64,000 bases of DNA from Algibacter marinivivus (GTDB taxonomy: Bacteria; Bacteroidota; Bacteroidia; Flavobacteriales; Flavobacteriaceae): NCBI RefSeq assembly GCF_003143755.1, contig NZ_QFRI01000001.1:806001-870000 (forward strand), in the 5' to 3' direction. This document shows, piece after piece, positions 7,875 through 54,837 of the stretch. The notes below the pieces were generated by a model that worked only from the letters and a program-made list of their open reading frames with translations, had not been told where the DNA came from and made no database searches. The first letter of the stretch is position 1; each line of letters opens with the position of its first letter. Position numbers and translations under genes: made by a program.

Positions 7875-7943
7875 TGTCTTAAAGTTTATTCGTTTATGAG
7901 TTTAATTGTTTTTTTTAAAAAGTTTAATTTTTAACTCTACACC

Positions 7944-8020
7944 CTAGCCCTGATTGAAACGGCATCCTTTTTTGATTTTTCTTCAAAAAAGATATAGTGG
8001 AAAGCAGGAAATAGCTTCTA
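7944..8020 (-). repeat. Dispersed intergenic repeat, copy R2 (core type A, variant ends)
   Basis: Shares the core GGCATCCTTTTTTG...CAAAAAAGATATAG(T/C)GGAAAGC with copy R3 at 47529-47612. Its ends differ: CTAGCCCTGATTGAAACGG on one side and AGGAAATAGCTTCTA on the other. The core folds as a T/A-rich hairpin. It starts about ten bases past the hmgA stop and may serve as its terminator. Confidence 0.7.
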
Positions 8021-16373: not shown

Positions 16374-16585
16374 CTATTTCTTTTCTTAACAAGACATAAT
16401 ATCATTGAAATTAAAGTTAGAATAAATAATATTATAATCCCCATTATGACTAATTTAATCCAAATTTCAACATAATTTAATTCTGGAGCTACATTCCTTA
16501 AAACTGATTCTGCTGAAAAACACCAAATAATTGATAACGCAATAAACGCTGCAAAGTGAAGTAATATTATTTTCCAATTTTTCAC
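16370..16585 (-). CDS. Small two-span membrane protein
   Basis: A 71-residue hypothetical protein with two predicted membrane helices (ILLHFAAFIALSIIWCFS and LVIMGIIILFILTLISMILCL) and a basic tail. Its ATG overlaps the lspA stop in an ATGA arrangement, so it is translationally coupled to lspA. Function unknown; the coupling suggests it may be conserved with lspA in relatives. Confidence 0.75.
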   Translation of the reverse strand: MKNWKIILLHFAAFIALSIIWCFSAESVLRNVAPELNYVEIWIKLVIMGIIILFILTLISMILCLVKKRNS

Positions 16586-17202
16586 TCTTTCGAAAATGCC
16601 TTCTTATTAAACACAATAAGCATAATAAAACCTGTACTTATAGCCATATCAGCAATATTAAACACTGGGTCGAAAAAGCTAAAGCGTTTCCCACCATAAA
16701 AAGGAAACCACTCGGGTAAATCAACTTCAAATAATGGAAAATGAAGCATGTCGACTACTTTACCATGAAGCAAACTATCGTAACCTCCTGTTTCAGGTAA
16801 AAAATTTGCTACTTGACTGTAGCTATCATCAAACAAAACGCCATAAAACACAGAATCAATAATATTTCCTAAAGCACCAGAAAAAATTAAAGCAATGGCT
16901 ATAATTAATATTTTAGAGCTTTGCTTTTTTGTAGCGTCGTACAGCCAATAACCAATCCCGAAGATAGCCACAATTCTAAATGAGGTTAATATCACTTTAG
17001 CTGTTCTGTCTGATATAAAAGACACAAAATCACTAATTTTTGTACCCCAAGCCATTCCATCGTTCTCAACAAAAATAATCTCAAACCAACTAAAAATATC
17101 TACACTTTCTTGTAGTGCAAAATTGGTTTTGATGTAAATCTTACTAACCTGATCGATTAATAAAATGATGATGATTAGGATTATGGATTTTTTTAGTGAC
17201 AT
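16582..17202 (-). CDS. lspA: Lipoprotein signal peptidase (signal peptidase II)
   Basis: Inner-membrane aspartyl peptidase that removes signal peptides from prolipoproteins, of which several are encoded in this window. The 206 residues include four predicted membrane helices. The catalytic Asp residues lie in GALGNIIDSVFYG and DPVFNIADMAIS. The loop between helices is longer than in E. coli LspA (164 residues), typical of Bacteroidota. Located downstream of the ileS and dksA-like genes behind a terminator. Confidence 0.96.
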   Translation of the reverse strand: MSLKKSIILIIIILLIDQVSKIYIKTNFALQESVDIFSWFEIIFVENDGMAWGTKISDFVSFISDRTAKVILTSFRIVAIFGIGYWLYDATKKQSSKILIIAIALIFSGALGNIIDSVFYGVLFDDSYSQVANFLPETGGYDSLLHGKVVDMLHFPLFEVDLPEWFPFYGGKRFSFFDPVFNIADMAISTGFIMLIVFNKKAFSKE

Positions 17203-17248: not shown

Positions 17249-17259
17249 TGACAAATAAA

Positions 17260-17286
17260 AAACGCCTCAAGACTCTTGAGACGTTT
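17260..17286 (-). terminator. Intrinsic terminator after the dksA-like gene
   Basis: Eleven-base stem (17260-17270 with 17276-17286, one wobble) with a five-base loop. A T-rich stretch follows on the minus strand. It separates ileS-dksA-like from lspA. Confidence 0.8.
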
Positions 17287-17307
17287 CAAATATATCATTT
17301 TAAAAAA

Positions 17308-17690: not shown

Positions 17691-20600
17691 TTAATGTTTT
17701 TGGATAAATAATTTGGTATTTACATCATCAAAAGCAATTTCTATACCATCTTCCAGTTTATCTATAATTTCAAGTTCGTTTGTTAATGTTTCTGTTTTAA
17801 TGTAAGTCATATTAGCATCAACTGCATGTATAACTTGCTCATCTTTTTGAAGGGTTACATCAATTCTGTCTGTGACTTCAAAACCAGAATCTTTACGTAG
17901 ATTCTGTATTCTATTAATCAACTCTCTTGCAATACCTTCTTTTTTCAAATCTTCGGTAATTGTTACATCTAAAGCTACCGTTAAAGCACCTTCATTTGCA
18001 ACCAACCACCCTTCGATATCTTGAGATGTAATCTCTACATCTGTACGTTCTAAAGTAATACTTTTTCCGTTTACTTCGACGTCTAAATTACCATTTTGTT
18101 CGATTTTTTTAATATCGTCAGGTGTAAAGTTATTAACTACTTGAGCAACAGCTTTCATGTCTTTTCCAAAACGAGGACCAAGAACTTTAAAGTTTGGTTT
18201 TATCTGTTTTACTAAAATATCAGACGCATCTTCTAGAACTTCAATTTCTTTTATATTAACCTCAGATTTTATAAGGTCTGCAACGGCTAATATTTCATTT
18301 TTTTGTGATTCGCTATCAATAGGAATCATTATTTTCTGTAATGGCTGTCTTACTTTTATTTTCTCTTTTGCTCTTAACGACAATACTAACGATGATATTG
18401 TTTGAGCACTTTCCATCTTGTTTTCCAGAGACTTATCAACATAAGCTTCATCAAAAACAGGAAAGTTTGCTAAATGCACACTCTCAAAATCTTCTTTTTT
18501 TGTGGCTGCATTTAAATCTAAATACAAACGATCCATAAAAAATGGAGCAATTGGTGCACCTAATTTAGCAATGGTTTCCATACACGTGTAAAGCGTTTGG
18601 TATGCTGAAATTTTATCTTGTTGGTAATCGCCTTTCCAGAAACGTCTTCTACTTAAACGTACAAACCAGTTACTTACATAATCTTGAGTAAAATCTGAAA
18701 TGGCTCTTGCCGCTCTTGTAGGCTCGTAATCTGCATAAAATGCATCCACTTTTTGAATTAATGTATGTAATTCTGAAAGTATCCAACGATCTATTTCTGG
18801 CCTTTCATTTAAAGGAATATCAGCTTCACTATATGTAAAATTATCTAGGTTAGCATATAACTGAAAAAATGAATAGGTATTGTAAAGTGTTCCGAAAAAC
18901 TTACGTTTAACCTCTTCAATACCATCTAAATCAAACTTTAAATTATCCCAAGGATTAGCGTTTGAAATCATATACCAACGTGTGGCATCTGCACCGTAAT
19001 TGCCAAGTGTTTCAAAAGGATCCACAGCGTTTCCTAAACGTTTAGACATTTTTTGCCCGTTCTTATCTAACACCAATCCGTTCGACACCACGTTTTTATA
19101 TGCTACAGAATCAAAAACCATAGTTCCGATAGCGTGAAGCGTATAAAACCAACCTCTAGTTTGATCGACACCTTCTGCTATAAAATCTGCTGGATATGTT
19201 GTGCCTTTATCAATTAAATCTTTGTTCTCAAACGGGTAATGCCATTGTGCGTAAGGCATGGAACCAGAATCGAACCAAACATCAATAAGATCGCTTTCTC
19301 GGAACATTTTTTGACCTGTTTTAGATACTAATACAATATCATCAACAATATTTTTATGTAAATCAATTTTAGCGTAATTGGCTTCAGAATTGTTCCCAAC
19401 TTCAAAATCAGCAAAAATATCTGCTTTCAAAACACCTGCTGAAACAGCCTTAAACATTTCATTCTTCAATTCTTCAACCGAACCAATACAAATTTCCTCT
19501 TTACCATCTTCAGTTCTCCATATTGGCAATGGAATTCCCCAATAACGTGAACGTGATAAATTCCAATCATTAGCATTTGCTAACCAATTACCAAAACGCC
19601 CTGTACCAGTTGATTTTGGCTTCCAGTTTATAGTTTCGTTAAGTTCAAACATTCTGTCCTTAACATCTGTAACTTTTACAAACCAAGAATCTAATGGGTA
19701 GTATAAAATAGGTTTATCTGTTCTCCAGCAATTTGGGTAGCTATGTTTATATTTTTCAACCTTAAAGGCTTTATTTTCTTCCTTTAATTTAATAGCTAGC
19801 TCAACATCTATAGAACGTTCTGGTGCTTCGCCATCATTATAATATTCATTTTTAACATATTTACCAGCAAATTCAGCCATTTCTGGTCTAAACTTTCCTT
19901 GTAAATCTACTAAAGGCACTAAATTATCATTCTCATCCTTAACCAACATTGGTGGAATTTCAGGTGATGCTTGTTTTGCCACTAATGCATCATCTGCTCC
20001 AAAAGTTGGTGCGGTATGAACAATTCCTGTCCCATCTTCAGTAGTTACAAAATCTCCAGAAATGACTCTAAATGCATCCTGAGGATTATCATTTGGAAGC
20101 GCGTATTTTAAAAGCTGCTCGTATCTTATTCCTAGTAAATCTTCACCTTTACATTCAGCAGCAATTAAAAAAGGAATTTTTTTGTTCTCTTTTGAATAGC
20201 TAGATAATTCTGAAACATCTTCAGTTTGCTGATATTTTCCAGTAAATTGTTTACCAACTAAGTTTTTAGCAAGAATAACATGAACAGGCTCAAATGTATA
20301 TTGATTGTAAGTTGCCACTACAACATAATCAATCTTAGAACCAACTGTTAATGCTGTATTACTTGGTAATGTCCAAGGTGTGGTAGTCCAAGTTAAAAAA
20401 TGTAAATGATCAAATCTTTTTAAGAATTCAGGTAATGTATTCTCAATTACTTTAAACTGAGCTACCACAGTTGTATCTGTAACATCTTGATAGGTTCCTG
20501 GTTGGTTTAACTCATGTGAACTTAGACCTGTACCAGCCTTTGGAGAATATGGTTGAATTGTATACCCCTTGTATAATAAGCTTTTGTTGTAAATCTGTTT

Positions 20601-21095
20601 TAATAACCACCAAACAGATTCCATATATTTAGGCTCATAGGTAATGTATGGATCGTCCATATCTACCCAATAACCCATTTTTTGAGTAAGGTCGTTCCAA
20701 ACATCTGTATAGCGCATTACTGCTTTACGACAAGCAGCATTATAATCTTCAACAGAAATGCTTTTACCGATATCTTCTTTAGTAATTCCTAATTCTTTTT
20801 CAACACCTAACTCAATAGGTAAACCGTGTGTGTCCCAACCTGCTTTACGCTTAACTTGGAAGCCTTTCATGGTTTTATAACGCGGAAAGATATCTTTAAT
20901 AGCACGTGCTAAAACGTGGTGTACTCCTGGAAGTCCGTTTGCAGAAGGAGGTCCTTCAAAAAACACGTAAGATTCTTTACCTTCTCTTGTAGATACACTT
21001 TTTTCAAAGATGTTGTTTTCTTGCCAATATTGTAGAACTTCGTTTGCTACATTTGGTAAGTCAAGTCCTTTATATTCAGGAAATTTAGCGCTCAT
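17691..21095 (-). CDS. ileS: Isoleucyl-tRNA synthetase, type 2, with GVHH in place of HIGH
   Basis: Charges tRNA-Ile with isoleucine. The 1134-residue length, about 200 more than the E. coli enzyme, and the C-terminal anticodon-domain region fit the eukaryote-like type 2 IleRS. The HIGH signature near the N-terminus reads GVHH (residues 57-60, in SANGLPGVHHVLAR): positions one and three of the motif are exchanged. The second class I signature is intact as KMSKR (682-686). The CP1 editing domain is present (FLTWTTTPWTLPSNTAL and GTGIVHTAPTFGADD). Type 2 enzymes tolerate mupirocin, and the GxHH form is reported to be hyper-resistant. It is the only ileS in this window. Confidence 0.97.
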   Translation of the reverse strand: MSAKFPEYKGLDLPNVANEVLQYWQENNIFEKSVSTREGKESYVFFEGPPSANGLPGVHHVLARAIKDIFPRYKTMKGFQVKRKAGWDTHGLPIELGVEKELGITKEDIGKSISVEDYNAACRKAVMRYTDVWNDLTQKMGYWVDMDDPYITYEPKYMESVWWLLKQIYNKSLLYKGYTIQPYSPKAGTGLSSHELNQPGTYQDVTDTTVVAQFKVIENTLPEFLKRFDHLHFLTWTTTPWTLPSNTALTVGSKIDYVVVATYNQYTFEPVHVILAKNLVGKQFTGKYQQTEDVSELSSYSKENKKIPFLIAAECKGEDLLGIRYEQLLKYALPNDNPQDAFRVISGDFVTTEDGTGIVHTAPTFGADDALVAKQASPEIPPMLVKDENDNLVPLVDLQGKFRPEMAEFAGKYVKNEYYNDGEAPERSIDVELAIKLKEENKAFKVEKYKHSYPNCWRTDKPILYYPLDSWFVKVTDVKDRMFELNETINWKPKSTGTGRFGNWLANANDWNLSRSRYWGIPLPIWRTEDGKEEICIGSVEELKNEMFKAVSAGVLKADIFADFEVGNNSEANYAKIDLHKNIVDDIVLVSKTGQKMFRESDLIDVWFDSGSMPYAQWHYPFENKDLIDKGTTYPADFIAEGVDQTRGWFYTLHAIGTMVFDSVAYKNVVSNGLVLDKNGQKMSKRLGNAVDPFETLGNYGADATRWYMISNANPWDNLKFDLDGIEEVKRKFFGTLYNTYSFFQLYANLDNFTYSEADIPLNERPEIDRWILSELHTLIQKVDAFYADYEPTRAARAISDFTQDYVSNWFVRLSRRRFWKGDYQQDKISAYQTLYTCMETIAKLGAPIAPFFMDRLYLDLNAATKKEDFESVHLANFPVFDEAYVDKSLENKMESAQTISSLVLSLRAKEKIKVRQPLQKIMIPIDSESQKNEILAVADLIKSEVNIKEIEVLEDASDILVKQIKPNFKVLGPRFGKDMKAVAQVVNNFTPDDIKKIEQNGNLDVEVNGKSITLERTDVEITSQDIEGWLVANEGALTVALDVTITEDLKKEGIARELINRIQNLRKDSGFEVTDRIDVTLQKDEQVIHAVDANMTYIKTETLTNELEIIDKLEDGIEIAFDDVNTKLFIQKH

Positions 21096-21162: not shown

Positions 21163-21190
21163 AAAAGACTACTTAAAAAAGTAGTCTTTT
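21163..21190 (-). terminator. Intrinsic terminator after the T9SS protein gene
   Basis: Ten-base stem AAAAGACTAC/GTAGTCTTTT around an eight-base A-rich loop, followed on the minus strand by a T run. It stands between the 1306-residue protein gene and ileS. Confidence 0.8.
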
Positions 21191-47499: not shown

Positions 47500-47528
47500 T
47501 GGGTATAGAATTTTGTTGGCGGTTAAGT

Positions 47529-47612
47529 GCGTTAGGGATTGCAGCGGCATCCTTTTTTGCTTTTTCTGCAAAAAAGATATAGCGGAAAGCCCGACCCCTT
47601 GTGGTAACGCCC
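47529..47612 (-). repeat. Dispersed intergenic repeat, copy R3 (core type A)
   Basis: On the minus strand it starts GGGCGTTACCACAAGGGGTC and ends ATCCCTAACGC, the same ends as R1, R4 and R5. Its core is the T/A-rich hairpin type shared with R2 and R4, with GATATAGCGGAAAGC-like flanks. It lies between umuC and umuD, 52 bases past the umuC stop. Confidence 0.85.
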
Positions 47613-54743: not shown

Positions 54744-54829
54744 GGCGTTACCACAAGGGTCGGGCTATCCGCTATATCTTTTTAATTTTTTTTGAAAATT
54801 AAAAAGGATGCCGCTTCTATCCCTAACGC
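54743..54829 (+). repeat. Dispersed intergenic repeat, copy R4 (core type A)
   Basis: Starts GGGCGTTACCACAAGGGTC at the bioA stop and ends ATCCCTAACGC. The core is an A/T hairpin, CTTTTTAATTTT paired with AAAATTAAAAAG, flanked by GCTATCCGCTATAT and GGATGCCGC. It separates bioA from the ketoacyl synthase gene. Confidence 0.88.
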
Positions 54830-54837
54830 ATAAGTAT

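Follow-up and report, generated by a model that had tools for sequence, protein, structure and literature searches.

The isoleucyl-tRNA synthetase (IleRS) encoded in the stretch of Algibacter marinivivus DNA analyzed here (64,000 nucleotides, hereafter the window) is a type 2 enzyme (IleRS2) that carries GVHH at the position of the class I signature HxGH. The gene is almost certainly the housekeeping ileS of a member of the Flavobacteriaceae, with the G-x-H-H form inherited, and its product, predicted to be an active enzyme, would have a high inhibition constant (Ki) for mupirocin. The initial annotation presented GVHH as a rearranged HIGH motif; our survey found GxHH to be the standard state in the Bacteroidota sampled. 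The coordinates of the gene, its motifs and its neighbors are collected in Table 1.

Table 1. Features of the window around ileS
Feature	Position	Strand	Basis or remark
ileS (type 2 isoleucyl-tRNA synthetase, IleRS2), 1134 aa	17691..21095	-	TIGR00392, Pfam and PDB matches
GVHH, residues 57-60, class I HxGH signature position	20916..20927	-	ORF reading, alignment
Ser51 codon, E. coli Tyr59 position (GPP-S-ANG)	20943..20945	-	alignment; usual in the class
KMSKR loop, residues 682-686	19038..19052	-	alignment; coordinates computed from the ORF start
DksA/TraR-type zinc finger protein, 125 aa	17308..17685	-	starts 5 nt downstream of ileS
lspA, lipoprotein signal peptidase	16582..17202	-	NF011369, 280 bits (cut-off, 200)
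Terminator-like hairpin between the upstream 1306-aa ORF and ileS	21163..21190	-	consensus scan, weak
Terminator-like hairpin between the DksA-like gene and lspA	17259..17287	-	consensus scan, weak

In the profile search, the 1134-aa frame scored 987 bits with TIGR00392 (cut-off, 621), and the Pfam domains tRNA-synt_1, Anticodon_1 and DUF5915 were assigned to it. Codons 57-60 are GGA GTA CAC CAC on the minus strand (20927..20916), in the context EGPPSANGLPGVHHVLARAIKD. A scan of the whole protein found a single G-x-H-H, at these residues, and no H-x-G-H anywhere in the 1134 residues, which agrees with the reading of GVHH first made from the sequence. In an alignment of 46 rows including type 1 (IleRS1) and type 2 enzymes, the column of the window GVHH is occupied by HIGH in the IleRS1 of E. 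coli, Shinella and Fusobacterium, by HAGH in MupA and by HHGH in the IleRS of the plasmid pTML1; GVHH thus stands in the signature column, and no other HxGH tetrapeptide takes that place. The pTML1 enzyme (NC_015708.1, Pseudoalteromonas sp. SANK 73390; locus L229, 1941-5087) is encoded beside biosynthetic-looking genes, which we take to be those for thiomarinol, and is likely a self-resistance enzyme keeping the canonical motif order.

The PDB search with the window IleRS returned 8c8w, 8c8u, 8c8v and 8c9d as the top chains. The best match, 8c8w (an entry for P. megaterium IleRS2), reads GVHH, ungapped under the window GVHH, and 8c8u and 8c8v read HVGH at this position (three PDB alignments shown). 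According to the available text of PMC4861432, the eukaryote-like IleRS2 is marked by the presence of HYPFE and by the absence of Tyr59, NKIL and the C-terminal Cys cluster. The window IleRS has HYPFE at 619, no NKIL and Ser51 where Tyr59 would be expected; its last Cys is residue 838 and no CxxC occurs, hence the enzyme is without the C-terminal Cys-4 zinc cluster. With the same script, NKIL was present and HYPFE absent in the IleRS1 of E. coli, Shinella and Fusobacterium, C-terminal CxxC pairs were present in E. coli and Fusobacterium IleRS1 and absent in that of Shinella, and MupA, a type 2 enzyme, was without HYPFE. Because MupA lacks HYPFE and Shinella IleRS1 lacks CxxC, these two are not strict marks. 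The window IleRS has function and class I fold in common with the bacterial IleRS1 but is unlike them at the features that define type 1, with GVHH for HxGH (HIGH in the three enzymes), Ser51 for Tyr59 and no NKIL, and it lies on the opposite side of the tree (see below). Its sequence marks and its best PDB relative, an IleRS2 with GVHH, both place it where the initial annotation had put it, among type 2 enzymes of the GxHH form. It is like the G/AXHH IleRS2 of Streptomyces griseus, Deinococcus radiodurans and P. megaterium (GVHH form) in type and in the swap of motif residues 1 and 3, and differs from those described by Brkic et al. (2023) in its origin from Bacteroidota, in Ser for Tyr59 and in KMSKR for KMSKS. 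The predicted structure was of low confidence (mean pLDDT, 55.2; pTM, 0.48; alignment of 9 rows), and in this model residues 58-76 were drawn as a helix after the strand 42-47.

For the survey of the motif, 296 genomes of the phylum were drawn, of which 206 matched the A/GxHH pattern. For the 73 genomes at own, family, order or class rank, the printed matches were inspected by eye, and in each genome one decodes ANGxPG(I/V)HH. Of the 90 genomes of which no pattern match was obtained, 27 were opened, together with three genomes having chance matches; the pattern-survey loci L013, L033 and L034 (3 of 30) contained no motif and were rejected as such matches. Among these 30 opened genomes, 29 were readable, all with GxHH and with TVNG for ANG, and the remaining one (G280, locus L128) was cut off; the opened genomes that had escaped the first pattern did so because TVNG replaces ANG before the motif, not because of HxGH. 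A further 20 pattern-matched genomes from outside the class all had GxHH; note that they were chosen by the printed match PG(I/L)HH and so probe the neighboring residues and the loop, not GxHH itself. The outside-class sample is therefore 50 opened of 223 phylum genomes, with the illegible G280 among them. In total, GxHH was found in 149 of 149 legible Bacteroidota genomes (one more was illegible), 100 of the window's class (73, 26 new genomes from 30 class loci, and G384 with locus L243) and 49 of other classes (29 and 20). It was also found in 80 of 80 loci of a separate set (77 GIHH and 3 GVHH), which were taken as the best 80 of 586 and may include some of the 149 genomes. Since the same form recurs in both sets, the window GVHH is neither an error nor a chance reading, and the survey speaks against a recent or local rearrangement of the motif, which was considered as a candidate. 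Within the family of the window, none of 30 genomes gave a match to the canonical pattern, and the matches in other Bacteroidota read ANGPVHIGH and alike, presumably in MetRS.

The residues accompanying the motif differ between classes. At the Tyr59 position, Ser was found in class Bacteroidia in 30 of 30 (L069-L098) and 80 of 80 (the best of 586; L149-L228) loci, and Thr in all 49 readable genomes of the other classes (L099-L127 and L250-L269). The loop is KMSKR in 29/30 and 75/80 (again the best 80 of 586) of the Bacteroidia loci, the rest being KMSKS, KMSKH or unread, and KMSKS in 43/49 of the other genomes. The KMSKR loop, called normal in the initial annotation, is thus the usual form in the class but departs from the KMSKS consensus. 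The replacements of Tyr59 named in the available text of PMC4861432 are Phe and Thr.

A search of the entire genome (3.34 Mb, 99.89% complete) detected a single IleRS, on a 1.9-Mb contig. The next best match, an 890-aa frame on contig C6, was considered as a second ileS and rejected, being ValRS by both scanned pieces; judging from size and score, we regard the weaker matches (1027-, 697- and 504-aa frames) as other class I synthetases. With a sole IleRS detected and conserved gene neighbors (see below), the earlier view that this is the main enzyme of the organism rather than an acquired copy holds. In the class survey, 123 of 129 genomes had an IleRS match at E <= 1e-80; 15 of the 123 gave two rows, but these align to complementary stretches of the model, as expected for fragments of a single gene, and none gave two largely overlapping rows. 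For the six genomes having no match at this threshold, a laxer search gave nothing in G363 and G387, rows in G312, G333 and G374 with frames reading PPNVTGVLHMGH, which we assume to be ValRS, and in G384 a row of the PPNVTGVLHMGH type plus a 166-aa N-terminal IleRS piece with GIHH. G333, listed as 99% complete (30 contigs), has a ValRS-like frame and no IleRS match at E <= 1e-30; its missing IleRS is probably an assembly gap. Second rows with E values of 1e-81 to 1e-83 in G074, G196 and G204 (outside-class search) were ValRS-like frames of 903-907 aa. In one class relative (G115), a 5.6-kb contig (C10; locus L248, 261-782, minus strand) holds the beginning of another IleRS, with GIHH, which runs into an unrelated frame soon after the motif, and a full ileS is on another contig; the fragment is either what remains of a truncated gene or the product of an assembly join.

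A quick tree of 46 hand-picked rows was reconstructed with the motif columns removed (the window, 9 of 30 class loci, 18 of 30 loci of the outside-class search, 10 of the 80 best-of-586 loci and 8 plasmid-collection records); only 6 rows are from outside Bacteroidota, and these drew long-branch warnings. The window IleRS stands beside that of Aestuariibaculum (87% identity), followed by those of Tenacibaculum and Flavobacterium, and belongs to a clade made up of 40 Bacteroidota rows (SH-aLRT, 97); the three IleRS1 rows are placed across a branch with an SH-aLRT of 100, the window being on the IleRS2 side. This position among Flavobacteriaceae fits vertical descent of the gene. Outside Bacteroidota, the IleRS2 of Acetoanaerobium reads GIHH, and at least two motif changes are needed overall on this small tree.

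Downstream of ileS in 20 relatives across the phylum, the DksA-like gene was found in 16, lspA in 14 and at least one of the two in 19. The scan gave four terminator-like hairpins in the region, where shuffled sequence gave 2.1 (sd 1.6), a weak signal; one hairpin precedes ileS and another follows the DksA-like gene, an arrangement in which these two genes would form one unit. The housekeeping operon proposed for them in the initial annotation is well supported by the short spacing, the conserved order in relatives and the flanking hairpins. No RNA leader or T-box was found near ileS with Rfam at gathering thresholds. Elsewhere in the window, three Flavo-1 RNAs (RF01705; gathering score, 42 bits) were found at 7942-8015 (plus strand, 73.3 bits), 47522-47600 (plus, 58.1 bits) and 54754-54835 (minus, 61.8 bits). 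The order ileS then DksA-like gene was also seen on records labeled as plasmids, from Riemerella anatipestifer (L231, 2498-7025; lspA is also on this record) and Bacteroides finegoldii (L236, 201-3871), which are perhaps misassigned pieces of chromosome.

The G/AXHH IleRS2 was described by Brkic et al. (2023; PMC10485003), and the link to extreme mupirocin resistance invoked in the initial annotation is indeed published there. According to the parts of that paper available to us, mutagenesis changed the mupirocin Ki by about 175- to 820-fold: D. radiodurans IleRS2 (ALHH) has a Ki of 6600 uM, and 8.1 uM with the canonical motif, and the introduction of GVHH raised the Ki from 0.20 to 35 uM in T. 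thermophilus IleRS2 and from 1.08 to 460 uM in P. megaterium IleRS2. IleRS1 given GxHH formed no product (PMC10485003). The same text reports that the side-chain nitrogen of the third-position His replaces that of the first His, that this His fits IleRS2 without pushing the adenine because the motif helix has a shifted tip, and that it would clash with mupirocin. Since motif, type and nearest structural relative all match, this mechanism is the best explanation for the window IleRS. In that enzyme, the third-position His would take over the catalytic role that the first His has in HxGH, the active site would be shifted enough to hold it with the adenine undisplaced, and mupirocin would clash with this His, so that the enzyme is expected to be active with a Ki of tens of micromolar to millimolar. 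We infer its catalysis, histidine geometry and resistance from homologues, and target-level hyper-resistance to mupirocin would be a sound inference on this ground. Whole-cell resistance of Gram-negatives is also affected by the outer membrane; thus, an MIC alone is no proof of resistance at the target. In the literature, no resistance measurement for the window IleRS was found, nothing useful on mupirocin susceptibility in Flavobacterium or Bacteroides appeared among the matches (examined in part), and no paper on GxHH later than that of Brkic et al. (2023) was found when judged on title and start of abstract.

Could the gene be an acquired resistance copy of the MupA/MupB kind, borne by a mobile element in a genome that also has a sensitive housekeeping IleRS? 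The staphylococcal plasmid enzymes are likewise IleRS2, and the window IleRS gives 752.4 (MupA) and 768.8 (MupB) bits with the NCBIfam exception models NF000257/NF000258; however, both scores are far below the cut-off of 1900 bits, the window IleRS is the only one found in the genome and lies on a 1.9-Mb contig, its gene neighbors are conserved, and the tree order tracks the Flavobacteriaceae relatives. In addition, the one MupA read (S. hominis, plasmid-borne) has HAGH, not GxHH. We therefore give this reading practically no credence. Recent selection of the swap in this lineage by mupirocin-like antibiotics is also very improbable, although antibiotic pressure is what the authors of PMC10485003, in the text available, propose for the origin of the motif. 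GxHH is present wherever the motif is readable in the phylum, so no recent or local cause is needed, and no change from HxGH to GxHH was seen inside Flavobacteriaceae (30 family genomes). The motifs of pTML1 IleRS (HHGH) and MupA (HAGH) likewise argue against it, since they show that GxHH is not obligatory in resistance enzymes.

A neutral or structurally driven origin, in which the swap is an alternative IleRS2 active site, present by ancestry and with resistance as a by-product, is a far stronger candidate, to which we give slightly less than an even chance. It agrees with GxHH in all legible Bacteroidota sampled, with the minimum of two motif changes on the small tree and with the catalytic efficiency of D. 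radiodurans IleRS2 (ALHH), which is like that of canonical IleRS2 enzymes according to the available text of PMC10485003. On the other side, the laboratory motif swap had effects of up to 10-fold on kcat and KM (same source), and sequence cannot tell a neutral origin from old antibiotic selection. The housekeeping IleRS2 with inherited GxHH is the reading preferred here.

The window IleRS is an ordinary member of the published G/AXHH IleRS2; it brings little new and mainly confirms earlier work. What is added is scope, in that an exception to a highly conserved enzyme motif is the rule in the sampled Bacteroidota. Words beginning with "bacteroid" or "flavobacter" do not occur in the main text of PMC10485003, of which the figures or source data may well show the group. 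A smaller addition is the combination of GxHH with Ser and usually KMSKR in class Bacteroidia, as against Thr and mostly KMSKS in the other classes. A wider proposal is put forward tentatively, and we consider it rather unlikely as a whole: GxHH would be the fixed, ancestral state of the sole IleRS of Bacteroidota, co-fixed in class Bacteroidia with Ser and KMSKR, giving an alternative class I active site, phylum-wide immunity to mupirocin at the target level and an enzyme without tRNA-dependent pre-transfer editing, which S. griseus IleRS lacks according to the available text of PMC4861432. In the accessible part of PMC10835994, the IleRS of Ornithobacterium hominis (Flavobacteriaceae) is listed among resistance genes. 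As GxHH is the rule in the sampled Bacteroidota, intrinsic resistance to mupirocin at the level of the target is predicted in the group, and an ileS with GxHH in a Bacteroidota genome should not be annotated as an acquired resistance gene.
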